Below, piece after piece: positions 8,170-63,424 of a DNA stretch of 64,000 nucleotides. Both the position numbers and the translations under genes were made by a program. Below the pieces are notes generated by a model, which saw only the letters and a program-made list of their open reading frames with translations, was not told the DNA's origin and searched no databases. Every line of letters starts with the position of its first letter. The first letter of the stretch is position 1. Origin of the DNA: Halobellus inordinatus (GTDB lineage Archaea > Halobacteriota > Halobacteria > Halobacteriales > Haloferacaceae); the NCBI RefSeq assembly GCF_024464655.1, contig NZ_JANHAV010000002.1:434001-498000 (forward strand), in the 5' to 3' direction.

Positions 8170-8334
8170 TATAGTAGCGTTTGCAGCTGATAGGGACTAT
8201 CGTAAGTCCGCATAGGTTTCTCGCCGGACGGTACGGCGAGAATCTCCGAACAGTTACGATAACCCCTATGATTACACAGACAATCGCACGACTGCGTGCG
8301 ATTAGGCGCGTGAAGACTTGCAAACGCTACTATA
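8170..8334. repeat. 84-bp hairpin element (family B), interrupted by a family A insertion
   Basis: The outer ends are inverted repeats TATAGTAGCGTTTGCA and TGCAAACGCTACTATA. The centre has a perfect hairpin (AATCGCACG, ACTG loop, CGTGCGATT). The stretch is 165 bases long; removing the 78-base insertion and one 3-base duplication leaves 84 bases, the same length as the uninterrupted copy at 43485-43568. It fills much of the 334-base gap between mutL and the MFS gene. No coding capacity or transposase is present. Confidence 0.88.
8191..8268 (+). mobile_element. 78-bp MITE-like hairpin element, family A, copy 1 (nested in family B)
   Basis: Starts TAGGGACTATCG and ends CGATAACCCCTA, with an inner hairpin TCTCGCCG/CGGCGAGA around a 7-base loop. 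It is flanked on both sides by TGA (8188-8190 and 8269-8271). It interrupts a family B element. It has no open frame, so it must be moved by a transposase encoded elsewhere. Confidence 0.85.
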
Positions 8335-12335: not shown

Positions 12336-13661
12336 ATGGCACACGTAGTCACTAGCTTCCTCAGAAACCGCGGGCAGATCCTGCTCACTCGCCGCAGCGA
12401 CGCTGTCGGGACCTACCGGGGCCGCTGGGCCGGCGTCTCGGGGTACGTCGAGGGCGACCCGGCCGACGCCGAGCGCGACGCGTATCGGGAACTCCGCGAG
12501 GAGGTCGGCCTGACGGACACCGACCTCGCATTCGTCCGCGCCGGCGACGCACTCGCGGTCGACGACGAGCAGGGCTCGTTCACCGTCCACCCGTTCCTGT
12601 TCGAGACCGGGACGCGCGAACTCACGACCAACGAGGAACTCGCCGCCGTCGAGTGGGTCGACCCGACCGCGATCAGAGACAGAGCGACGGTCCCGCGCCT
12701 CTGGGAGACCTGGCTGCGAGTCGCCCCCACGGTCGCGGACGTGCGAGACGATCGGACTCACGGCTCGGCGTGGATCGCCGCACGCGCGCTCGAAGTGCTC
12801 CGCGATGCGGCCATCGAGGCCGACGACTGGGCGACGGTCGCGGAGGTCGCGCGCAGTCTCGGCGACGCGCGACCGGAGATGGCTGCCGTCCCGAACCGCG
12901 TGAATCGCGTCGTCGCCGAGGTGTGGCAGGCCACAGACGACGGCACGGCGCCCGACCCCCACGCGGTCGCAGAGCGCGCGATCGACGCGATCCACGACGC
13001 GTTCGAGGCTGACTCCGGCGCGGCGACGACGGCCGCGACCCGCCTTCGCGACGCCGATGCGACGGCGGTGGCGACGCTCTCGCGCTCCGGGACCGTCCGC
13101 GAGGCACTCGCGGCCCTGAACCCCTCGACGGTCGTCGTGGCGGAATCGCGCCCCGAATGCGAGGGCGTCGGCGTCGCGGAGTGGACCGCCGCCGAGACGG
13201 ACGCCTGGGTGACGCTGACGACGGAGGCCGCGCTCCCGACGGCGCTCGACGACCGCGAGGTCGACGCCGTCCTCGTCGGCGCCGACGCGGTGTTCCCGAA
13301 CGGGGACGTGGTGAACAAGACGGGGACCCGCGTGCTCGCGCTCGCCGCGCGCGACGTGGGCGTTCCCGTCTACGTCGTGGCCGCGCGGGATAAGACCCAG
13401 CCGGCCGCGATCGATGAGTCGGCCGCGACCGGTGGTGAGCACGGCGATGCCGAGCGCGCCCCCGCAGCGACCTCGCCCGCAAGCGCCGTCTACGACGGCG
13501 ACGCCGACGTCGACGTCCACGCGCCGACGTTCGAGATTGTCCCCGGAACGCTCGTCGACGGCGTCGCCACCGAGGCGGGGCTGCTCGGCGGGCGCGACGT
13601 ACAGGCGGTGGCCGAAGCCCACGCGGCGAACGCGGCGTGGGACGCGGAGCGCACGGACTGA
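12336..13661 (+). CDS. Nudix domain fused to an eIF2B-like (ribose-1,5-bisphosphate isomerase family) domain
   Basis: A 441-residue two-domain protein. The first part (residues 1-130) is a Nudix hydrolase with ILLTRRS and a Nudix box around GYVEGDPADAERDAYRELREEVGL. The second part (from about residue 140) is like the archaeal eIF2B alpha/beta/delta family, with VLVGADAVFPNGDVVNKTGT (about 309-328) as its best-kept signature. That family includes ribose-1,5-bisphosphate isomerase of archaeal AMP recycling. An acidic insert (about 365-390) interrupts the second domain. The fusion suggests nucleotide cleavage linked to a sugar-phosphate step. A TGA stop abuts a hairpin element. Confidence 0.88.
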   Translation: MAHVVTSFLRNRGQILLTRRSDAVGTYRGRWAGVSGYVEGDPADAERDAYRELREEVGLTDTDLAFVRAGDALAVDDEQGSFTVHPFLFETGTRELTTNEELAAVEWVDPTAIRDRATVPRLWETWLRVAPTVADVRDDRTHGSAWIAARALEVLRDAAIEADDWATVAEVARSLGDARPEMAAVPNRVNRVVAEVWQATDDGTAPDPHAVAERAIDAIHDAFEADSGAATTAATRLRDADATAVATLSRSGTVREALAALNPSTVVVAESRPECEGVGVAEWTAAETDAWVTLTTEAALPTALDDREVDAVLVGADAVFPNGDVVNKTGTRVLALAARDVGVPVYVVAARDKTQPAAIDESAATGGEHGDAERAPAATSPASAVYDGDADVDVHAPTFEIVPGTLVDGVATEAGLLGGRDVQAVAEAHAANAAWDAERTD

Positions 13662-13741
13662 TAATGATTACTCTCGTCTCTTACCGCCGACCATCGCCAC
13701 CGGGAGTGGCGCTCGGCGGTACACAGTGAGAGTAATCACTA
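13662..13741 (+). mobile_element. 80-bp hairpin element (family D) directly after a stop codon
   Basis: Inverted ends TAATGATTACTCTC and GAGAGTAATCACTA pair at 13 of 14 positions, and an inner hairpin ACCGCCGA/TCGGCGGT with CCAC/GTGG closes the centre. The left flank is TGA, the stop codon of the Nudix/eIF2B gene; the right flank is TGG. Its organisation matches family A although only the TA ends and GATTA are shared. The remaining 190 bases up to engB show no convincing gene. Confidence 0.7.
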
Positions 13742-13935
13742 TGGGGGGCGCAGCGAGCGCGGCGAGGAACAAGCGCGACGGTCGGACAGAAGTACGAGAA
13801 GCGAGAGGTTCTTCACTCGCGCGCGCCGATCGTCTACTGGTGGCGATGACGAGGGTTACCCCCACTCAGCCCCTTGTGATGACGCCTCTTTACTGAGCCA
13901 CCGTTTCCGAGACACGCACCCGAGTAGCAACGCCG

Positions 13936-15810: not shown

Positions 15811-15888
15811 TAGAGATTATCGTAACTGTTCGGAGATTCTCGCCGTCCCGTCCGGCGAGAAATCTATGCGGACTTACGATAGTCCCTA
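15811..15888 (-). mobile_element. 78-bp MITE-like hairpin element, family A, copy 2
   Basis: In inverted orientation to copy 1. It begins TAGAGATTATCGTAAC and ends TTACGATAGTCCCTA, is exactly 78 bases long, and is flanked by TCA on both sides (15808-15810, 15889-15891), the complement of the TGA seen at the other copies. It lies between two small haloarchaeal genes, just upstream of the DUF5809-like start, so it may have replaced or moved that promoter. Confidence 0.87.
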
Positions 15889-40465: not shown

Positions 40466-40548
40466 CGACGCGATAACACGGTACGGGAGTGCGCCCGCCG
40501 CGCAGTCCACCACGTGACTCTTTAGGTCGGATCGCGTACCGATCGTCG

Positions 40549-40806
40549 ATGTCTGATCTCGTCCTGTACGAAGTCGGGGGCTGTCCCTTCTGTATCAGAG
40601 TCAGGAACAAACTGGAGGAACTCGATCTGGAGTACGAATCGGTGATGGTGCCGCGATCGCACGCCAACCGGACGGAAGTGAAAGAGATCAGCGGGCAGAC
40701 GGGCGTTCCCGTGCTCGTCGACGAGGAACACGACGTCCACGGGATGCCGGAAAGCACCGATATTATCGCCTACCTGGAAGAGACGTACGGCGACGGCGCG
40801 AACTGA
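40549..40806 (+). CDS. Glutaredoxin-like protein
   Basis: An 85-residue thioredoxin-fold protein. The redox pair is CPFC (about residues 12-15), followed by the cis-proline segment TGVPVLVDEE (about 51-60) and GMPESTDIIAYLEE. Haloarchaea use gamma-glutamylcysteine instead of glutathione, so the partner thiol is probably that or a protein. The TGA stop codon is at the same time the left flank of a 78-bp mobile repeat. Confidence 0.92.
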   Translation: MSDLVLYEVGGCPFCIRVRNKLEELDLEYESVMVPRSHANRTEVKEISGQTGVPVLVDEEHDVHGMPESTDIIAYLEETYGDGAN

Positions 40807-40884
40807 TAGGGATTATCGTCACTGTTCGGAGAGTCTCGCCGTATCGTCCGGCGAGAAATCTATGCGGACTTACGATAACCCCTA
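40807..40884 (-). mobile_element. 78-bp MITE-like hairpin element, family A, copy 3
   Basis: Begins TAGGGATTATCGTCAC and ends CGATAACCCCTA, exactly 78 bases, flanked by TGA on both sides. The left TGA is the glutaredoxin stop codon. The inner hairpin is TCTCGCCG/CGGCGAGA. Its internal order is that of copy 2 (inverted to copies 1 and 4). The next 108 bases up to the convergent HTH gene hold no convincing gene. Confidence 0.88.
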
Positions 40885-41970: not shown

Positions 41971-42114
41971 ACCCGGTTGTACGCGATTCAGCGCATATAT
42001 GCGTTGTGCCGTCGAGGCCGCCTGCGTCCACCGGTTCTCCGGTTGTCGCTGCGACTGGGTCTCTCGAAGCCGTTAGCGAAAGCCGTTAGACGCCGCGCCG
42101 ACTACGCCCCTCCG

Positions 42115-43392
42115 ATGACTATCGTCGGCCTCGACGACACCGACTCCCGCGAGCGCGGGATGTGCACGACGTACCTCGCCGCGCGACTCGCCGAGGCCGT
42201 CGTCGACGCCGGGGGCCGCGTCGACCGCAAACTGTTGATCCGGCTCAATCCGGCGGTCGAGCACAAGACCCGCGGAAACGCCGCGCTCGCGCTCCACGTC
42301 GATCTCGACCCCGAACACGCGCTCGATCTCGCTACCGCCGAACTCGAACCGCTTGCGGAGACTGCGGATCCGCGGACGAGCCCGGGCGTGGTCGTCGCCG
42401 ACGACGATCCGAGCGACGTTCCCGAGGCGGTGTCGACGTTCACGCGACGCGCAATCCGTGACTTTCTGGAGCCCGCCGACGCGCTTCGGGTCGCGGATGA
42501 CGCCGGATACGTCCACCGCGGCTGGGCGGGGGGCCGCGGCCGCATCGGCGCGCTCGCGGCCGTCGGAGCGTGGGCCGCACTCGAGGAGTGGACCTACGAG
42601 CACATCTCCTACCGCGCGTTCGACCGGTGTGGCACTCCCCGAGAAGTCAACACGGAGTCCGTCTTCGATGCTGCAGCGGAATTCTACCCGCAGGCGTGGG
42701 ACACGGTCGACCGCGAGGAGGACGAACCGGTCTGCGTTCCGAACGCGCCCGGACCGATCCTCTATGGGATTCGCGGCGACGATCCCGACGCCGTCTGCGA
42801 TCTCGCAGCCCGCATCGACAGTGAGTCCATCGAACGGTCGGCGACGTTTCTGACGAACCAAGGCACCGATGTCCATCTCCGCGAGGGGACGCTCGGTGAA
42901 CTGCGCGACGGGCGCGCGTATCGCGTCGACGGGACCGTCGCCTCCGACCCGGAGACGCGTCGTGGGGGCCACGTGTTCTTCGACCTCGAAGCACGCGGCG
43001 ACGCCGACGATTCGGTCGACTGCGTCGCGTTCGAACCCACGAAGCGGTTTCGGGACCGCGTGCGGGCGCTTCGCTCCGGTGACGAGGTCACCGTCTGCGG
43101 CGAGGTGAGCGACGGGACGATCAAACTGGAGAAGTTCGCCGTCCGATCACTCCGGCGCACCGTGGAGACGACGCCGACGTGCGGCGAGTGCGGACGGTCG
43201 ATGGAGAGCGCCGGCCGGAACCAGGGGTACCGGTGTCGCGACTGCGGTACCTCGCGGTCTGGTCCGGAAACCGTCTCGGTCGACCGCGACCTCGATGTCG
43301 GGTGGTACGAGGTCCCACCCTGTGCCCGTCGACACATCGCTAAGCCGCTCGTTCGTGGCGGCTTCGACGCGCCGACGCACCCCGAGCGGTGA
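42115..43392 (+). CDS. tiaS: tRNA(Ile2) 2-agmatinylcytidine synthetase
   Basis: A 425-residue TiaS that attaches agmatine to C34 of tRNA-Ile(CAU) so that it reads AUA. The kinase-like first domain begins MTIVGLDDTDSRERGMCTTYLAA; GWAGGRGRIGALAAVGAW (about residues 138-155) and PILYGIRGDDPDAV are family segments. An OB fold (about 310-360) and a C-terminal zinc ribbon (CGECGRSMES and CRDCG) follow. Agmatine is supplied by PdaD, also in this window. The TGA stop borders a 79-bp hairpin element. Confidence 0.95.
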   Translation: MTIVGLDDTDSRERGMCTTYLAARLAEAVVDAGGRVDRKLLIRLNPAVEHKTRGNAALALHVDLDPEHALDLATAELEPLAETADPRTSPGVVVADDDPSDVPEAVSTFTRRAIRDFLEPADALRVADDAGYVHRGWAGGRGRIGALAAVGAWAALEEWTYEHISYRAFDRCGTPREVNTESVFDAAAEFYPQAWDTVDREEDEPVCVPNAPGPILYGIRGDDPDAVCDLAARIDSESIERSATFLTNQGTDVHLREGTLGELRDGRAYRVDGTVASDPETRRGGHVFFDLEARGDADDSVDCVAFEPTKRFRDRVRALRSGDEVTVCGEVSDGTIKLEKFAVRSLRRTVETTPTCGECGRSMESAGRNQGYRCRDCGTSRSGPETVSVDRDLDVGWYEVPPCARRHIAKPLVRGGFDAPTHPER

Positions 43393-43471
43393 TACTGTCG
43401 GACAGCAGTTCGTGAACTGTGTTGACACCCACGGGGTGCCGATAATTTTCACATCGTTGTGTCCGACAGTA
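43393..43471 (+). mobile_element. 79-bp hairpin element (family E) between two TGA
   Basis: Perfect 12-base inverted ends TACTGTCGGACA and TGTCCGACAGTA. It is flanked by TGA on both sides (43390-43392 and 43472-43474); the left one is the tiaS stop codon. An inner ACCC/GGGT hairpin and GTGAA/TTCAC arms are visible. Sequence is unlike family A, but length, TA ends and target are the same. Confidence 0.82.
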
Positions 43472-43484
43472 TGAACGGCTGGCG

Positions 43485-43568
43485 TATAGTAGCGTTTGCA
43501 AGTCTTCACGCACCGAATTGCACGCAGTCGTGCGATTGGCTGTGTAATCAGTTGCAAACGCTACTATA
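43485..43568 (-). mobile_element. 84-bp hairpin element (family B), intact copy
   Basis: Seventeen-base inverted ends (TATAGTAGCGTTTGCAA outward), with an inner imperfect hairpin TTGCACG/CGTGCGA. It is in reverse orientation to the copy at 8170-8334 and lies only 13 bases after the family E element. No clear target duplication is visible beyond TA. Confidence 0.85.
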
Positions 43569-46145: not shown

Positions 46146-46218
46146 CGCCCGAGGCGGGATTTGAACCCGCGTCACGACCGTGACAGGGTCGTATGATGGG
46201 CCACTACACCACCCGGGC
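46146..46218 (-). tRNA. tRNA-Asp(GTC)
   Basis: On the minus strand a 73-base tRNA starts GCCCGGG and pairs with CTCGGGC at the 3' end (discriminator G, no encoded CCA). The anticodon arm CGACC-CTGTCAC-GGTCG gives anticodon GTC. The T-arm is CGCGGGTTCAAATCCCGC with an intact GTTCAAAT loop. No intron. Confidence 0.97.
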
Positions 46219-46240: not shown

Positions 46241-46313
46241 CGCCCGAGGCGGGATTTGAACCCGCGTCACGACCGTGACAGGGTCGTATGATGGGCCACT
46301 ACACCACCCGGGC
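46241..46313 (-). tRNA. tRNA-Asp(GTC), tandem copy
   Basis: Identical over all 73 bases to the other tRNA-Asp, 22 bases upstream in the direction of transcription. Both copies are probably made from one precursor started at the TATA-like box near 46341. Confidence 0.97.
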
Positions 46314-63346: not shown

Positions 63347-63424
63347 TAGGGATTATCGTACGTCTCCATAGATTTCTCGCCGGACGGTACGGCGAGAATC
63401 TCCGAACAGTTACGATAATCCCTA
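63347..63424 (+). mobile_element. 78-bp MITE-like hairpin element, family A, copy 4
   Basis: Begins TAGGGATTATCGTACG and ends TACGATAATCCCTA, 78 bases, between TGA on both sides (63344-63346, 63425-63427). It lies in the 285-base divergent gap between two secreted-protein genes. The best-kept copy: outer 14-base arms and the inner hairpin TCTCGCCG/CGGCGAGA pair perfectly. The rest of the gap shows promoters but no further gene. Confidence 0.88.

Follow-up and report, generated by a model that had tools for sequence, protein, structure and literature searches.

IS5-family insertion sequences (ISs) of the IS1031/ISL2 type, like their eukaryotic PIF/Harbinger-Tourist counterparts, produce 3-bp TNA-like duplications at palindromic targets, and the ends of the IS5-type elements begin with G rather than TA. 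Bacterial REP sequences, which are tiny extragenic hairpins present in many copies, are served by RAYT transposases, a helper that is encoded elsewhere than on a longer form of the repeat; REPs are not known to combine inverted TA...TA ends with a target duplication of 3 bp. In Haloquadratum walsbyi, small mobile repeats (SMR-A and SMR-B) have been described that are reported to leave no target duplication (PMC3119063). SMR-A was reported to insert into the palindromes of PATEs and IS605-type transposons, while the mobiliser of the SMRs was called enigmatic and a transposon with the same ends was not known for them (PMC3119063).

The window analysed here is a 64-kb stretch of the Halobellus inordinatus genome (3.41 Mb in 23 contigs), in which three families of very small elements (designated B, C and D) were located, along with a fourth (E) which lies outside this group (Table 1). 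Like MITEs, the B, C and D elements are multi-copy and mobile, non-coding and too short for a transposase gene, and they carry terminal inverted repeats and a target duplication (TNA, with a nested empty site); for B, C and D, the genomes searched yielded no autonomous element whose ends are related to theirs. The 3-bp TNA target duplication of IS5-type (IS1031/ISL2) elements is present in all three families, whose own ends begin with TA; an IS5-type transposase with these ends was not seen, and none of the 34 PF01609 loci of the genus combines TA ends with TNA. The elements resemble the SMRs in being haloarchaeal repeats of approximately 80-110 bp with prominent inverted ends and many copies, and in falling into several families that are unrelated but alike in their target habits, with no transposon found to have the same ends in the genomes searched; unlike the SMRs, which are reported to leave no target duplication (PMC3119063), B, C and D duplicate TNA and are often located on stop codons. 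The coincidence of the duplicated TGA with stop codons in B, C and D is a new observation; no description of these families or of their stop-codon insertion was found in the openly searchable literature, although a prior description is possible. The older puzzle of haloarchaeal mobile repeats without a matching transposase (Haloquadratum, 2011) is now directly testable.

Table 1. Mini-elements, flanking triplets and adjoining gene in the 64-kb window (positions are those of the window).
Feature	Position	Strand	Remarks
Family D element, 78 bp	8191..8268	.	inside E element, at TGA
Family E element split by D element 8191-8268	8172..8332	.	
Left TGA of family C duplication	13659..13661	+	stop of ORF 12336-13661 (NUDIX + IF-2B domains)
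Family C element, 80 bp	13662..13741	.	ends TAATGATTACTCTC/GAGAGTAATCACTA
TGG where right TGA is expected, family C element	13742..13744	+	intact in most other C copies
Family D element, 78 bp	15811..15888	.	TCA both sides
Left TGA of D element 40807-40884	40804..40806		stop of ORF 40489-40806 (glutaredoxin / GST_N domain)
Family D element, 78 bp	40807..40884	.	TGA both sides
tiaS, tRNA(Ile2) 2-agmatinylcytidine synthetase gene	41977..43392	+	stop codon is the B insertion site
Left TGA of family B duplication	43390..43392	+	tiaS stop codon
Family B element, 79 bp	43393..43471	.	ends TACTGTCGGACA/TGTCCGACAGTA
Right TGA of family B duplication	43472..43474	+	read from window sequence
Family E element, 80 bp	43487..43566	.	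TA duplication, IS630-type ends; outside TNA group
Family D element, 78 bp	63347..63424	.	TGA both sides

The original prediction had described a 79-bp element with TGA on both sides and an 80-bp element with TGA on the left and TGG on the right, and both were seen as described. The family B element reads TGA-TACTGTCGGACAG...TGTCCGACAGTA-TGA and its inverted ends are perfect over 12 bp (TACTGTCGGACA), a pattern which, at one mismatch or fewer, gave 79+83 matches in the H. inordinatus genome compared to 2+2 for a reversed control pattern. The family C element reads TGA-TAATGATTACTCTC...GAGAGTAATCACTA-TGG; since both flanking copies are present in most family C copies, the TGG is probably a decayed second copy of TGA. 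Family C has 27 copies in the same genome (26 at 95% identity or above and one at 82%), nine of the 26 close copies being 100% identical to the element in the window, and TNA flanks were found on nearly all of them. Family D (family A of the original prediction; 78 bp, end TAGGGATTATCGTA) is represented by 41+33 exact ends in this genome and by four copies within the window. Recent bursts were apparent for family B in genome G002 (10 copies, mean identity of 98%) and for family C in the H. inordinatus genome (25 copies, 95% identity), so that some of the families have moved recently.

The end sequences of B, C and D are unrelated, yet all three families have TA...TA inverted ends of 13-14 bp. 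Homology of C, D and E just inside the ends (ACTGTT / GTCTC) was suggestive by eye; as the C-D similarity was not significant by permutation and the E-D similarity was weak (permutation P =0.012), the families were kept as unrelated. Among copies with flanks scored, nearly all B and C copies were 77-82 bp in length, while D copies ranged from 77 to 100 bp. The proposal that the three families share one design thus holds for the unrelated ends, near-equal size, TA ends and GWCTNAGWC target, but a length of about 80 bp is not universal (97-101 bp in some D elements).

The same 3-mer was found on both sides of 57/62 distinct copies of family B, 53/62 of family C and 34/39 of family D, and for the three families together an identical TNA flanked 141 of 163 copies. 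The duplicated triplets seen were TGA, TCA, TAA and TTA; a shared target type was correctly proposed, but the constant is the 3-bp TNA duplication and not TGA itself. The rebuilt target is a palindrome, GWC-TNA-GWC, in all three families and is strongest in C. In family C the downstream half of the target also appears at sites that have a stop codon as their upstream half, while the ordinary stop codons of the window are without this downstream half, which is not accounted for by the usual stop-codon context.

Empty sites were obtained from D elements nested within E elements, at 8191-8268 in the window and also at loci L053 and L115. When the D element and one TCA were removed from L053, the remainder aligned with the uninterrupted E copy of the window over 87 bp (97.7% identity), with no gap at the junction. 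As nested copies yield exact empty sites, B, C and D are products of transposition (MITE-like). A diverged orthologue pair (L355 versus L067, 75%) provided a gene that ends in TGA with the element absent. Other arrangements included a three-level nest, D inside E inside B (L115, 1234-1474), an E copy inserted in a B copy (L020) and a 66-bp family C variant abutting an E element (L143, G007 C3). On the 248-kb plasmid NZ_CP134947 of Halobellus sp. DFY28, a stretch of 50 kb is duplicated with 99.9% identity (L134 versus L136+L416); both copies carry the same mini-elements and gave no empty site.

The gene at which the family B element was inserted, tiaS, encodes a protein with Pfam matches to TiaS_FLD, TiaS_TCKD and a zinc ribbon; its match to NCBIfam NF040849 (E =2.5e-105) is under the curated cut-off of that family. 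Elsewhere in the window, a pair of minus-strand tRNA genes with equal Rfam scores (46146-46218 and 46241-46313) is separated by 22 bases. When all copies with clean duplications and sufficient flank were considered, the duplicated triplet closed a coding-like frame in 40/50 family C, 21/48 family B and 9/32 family D insertions. With sites inside open frames excluded, these values became 40/48 for C (83% of non-coding sites), 21/42 for B (50%) and 9/24 for D (38%), compared to an expectation of 13-18% at non-coding TNA sites of the 64-kb window, whether or not these were weighted by the target profile. The excess corresponds to P values of at most about 1e-23 in C, 2e-6 in B and 0.016 in D, figures which are approximate, the observed values coming from an open-frame rule and the null from a simple gene caller in a single 64-kb window. 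The open-frame rule was passed by 5.7% of all TGA in the window. Copies within one genome share descent, while their insertion sites are separate events. In public annotation, a gene end adjoins an element at three independent places (L134, 24503; L346, 3097; L347, 3025).

Insertion duplicates the TGA and the gene therefore keeps its stop codon; insertions at stop codons survive because the duplicated TGA leaves the gene whole. Family C shows a larger excess than B and D although the three have a target type in common, which speaks against survival as the full explanation; family C probably also favours the stop-codon context as a target. If this preference represents true targeting, it would offer mobile DNA a simple route through a compact genome without gene damage, by duplication of the stop codon that is hit.

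Searches of 148 genomes (family D), 17 genomes (families B and C) and 1.2 Mb of IS-rich DNA did not reveal any longer element bounded by B, C or D ends. Matching to the ends of full insertion sequences had been suggested with the original prediction; an IS related to the B, C or D ends was not found in the genomes searched. All close family C ends in the H. inordinatus genome pair at about 80 bp; family B has several solo ends there, none of which faces another across a transposase. At the D-end loci that were read, paired ends delimit 75-101 bp and carry up to 6 mismatches in the most decayed cases. Of 43 family C end observations in the two-contig genome G006, 41 were paired at about 80 bp and the two solo ends lay approximately 300 kb apart (L306 and L313; contig C1, ~2.356 and ~2.660 Mb), beside CTCA and CTGA and free of a partner nearby; these are truncated copies or one-ended events. 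The 10 near-identical B copies of G002 were likewise found without a longer partner. In the 1.2 Mb of stretches, many of which had been picked for transposases, we saw no element that has TA ends and duplicates TNA, and long-distance TNA-flanked inverted-repeat pairs in these stretches were separate mini-elements only, or gave no credible TA-ended IS. Among candidate parents, the 34 PF01609 transposase loci of the genus differ from B, C and D in their ends and duplications, and the PF13358 loci suit family E only. These searches scanned two transposase Pfam families and are blind to a parent sharing few end bases, so the missing partner is evidence and not proof. The transposase gene may be on an IS with partly matching ends, on an IS lost from the strains, or may be a fixed host gene.

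Family E is best read, from its sequence, as a putative IS630-type MITE. Both of its ends are similar to those that IS630-type elements carry in the genus (TAGTA...CTCA; permutation P =0.0002-0.012), although only ~14-17 of 28 end positions are common to E and the parent-like elements, which shows how little a mini-element may resemble its parent. In the same test the C and D ends were dissimilar and the B ends borderline (P ~0.04-0.1), and all three families duplicate TNA rather than TA. A pair of E elements in tandem with a single TA between them was observed at L136 (25831-25991).

B, C and D are probably three MITE-like families of very small DNA transposons which are non-autonomous and mobilised in trans by DDE-type transposase activity. 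We infer the DDE transposase as their mover: its activity would act in trans on all three families by recognising the 13-14-bp ends, and the palindromic GWC-TNA-GWC target would be cut with a 3-bp stagger, leaving TNA duplicated. The three end types could stand for as many transposase specificities directed at a single target type, and this combination suggests related transposases with different end recognition. Such a group had been one of two explanations originally offered; it is in keeping with the common target type, but the genomes searched yielded neither a transposase nor a longer element with these ends. The other, a non-transposase mechanism, is not needed, as exact 3-bp duplications at nested empty sites fit a DDE-type transposase. 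Against the DDE-transposase reading are the size of the elements, which is oddly uniform for deletion derivatives of different ISs, the G with which the ends of IS5-type TNA elements begin instead of TA, and the autonomous partner with these ends, which was not found in the genomes searched.

That the elements are chance hairpins adjoining common TGA triplets has a practically negligible probability: further inverted repeats with matching 3-bp flanks do exist in the window, but they are single and without TNA flanks, whereas the copy numbers of B (79+83 end matches) and C (27 copies), the identical TNA flanks on homologous copies and the empty sites rule out such an origin for the elements described here. 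Neither of the outcomes named as refuting the original prediction, chance hairpins in single copy or homologues lacking TGA flanks, was obtained. Selection for the hairpins behind stop codons, either as genes for structured RNAs or as RNA signals at 3' ends (terminators or stability elements), would account for their strength and for the excess right at gene ends. This reading is nevertheless highly improbable, as 0/9 pairs showed covariation in 28 D-type sequences (an alignment of D-type elements only), there was no Rfam match, the arm facing the gene showed no significant bias and the commonest type of C copy in the H. inordinatus genome has a disrupted inner stem.

The remaining alternatives concern the source of the transposase. 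It is reasonably probable that the families are ordinary MITEs, with a parent IS that has been lost from the strains, is on an unsampled plasmid or has few end bases in common with them. Family E follows this pattern in the same genome, and the same is reported for some Haloquadratum MITEs that lack an intact transposase (PMC3119063); the absence of TNA-duplicating TA-ended ISs from the 1.2 Mb of stretches and from the 34 PF01609 loci speaks against it. A fixed, host-encoded (domesticated) transposase serving the elements in a RAYT-like manner, which would make an autonomous element with the same ends unnecessary, is a less probable source. It would agree with the sight of mini-elements alone despite several recently moved families, and with the paired C ends of G006 and the partnerless B copies of G002, but no candidate gene was seen among the two transposase Pfam families scanned, IS copies can drop out of draft assemblies and the families are patchily present among congeners. 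The fuller proposal of a dedicated and long-lived system of the Halobacteria, in which a fixed transposase acts in trans on 78-101-bp families without an autonomous version and preferential insertion at TGA stops regenerates the stop and spares the gene, is tentative and considered rather unlikely.

B ends were found in 3/17 and C ends in 7/17 genomes of the genus, while D ends were found in 13/148 genomes of the family, representing six genera. Beyond the genus, D ends often enclose elements of 97-101 bp, and D-end elements are also present in Natrialbaceae, Haloarculaceae and others (class Halobacteria); across several families of Halobacteria the outer ~22 bp and the TNA flanks of D elements are kept, while the interior is variable. 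In the wider D-end search, 2/25 matches were in unrelated bacteria and were taken as chance, as were the single-end, partnerless matches in IMG/VR viral contigs. The families provide ready markers of recent haloarchaeal transposition. Family E is also common on plasmids of Haloferax, Halorubrum and Haloplanus.
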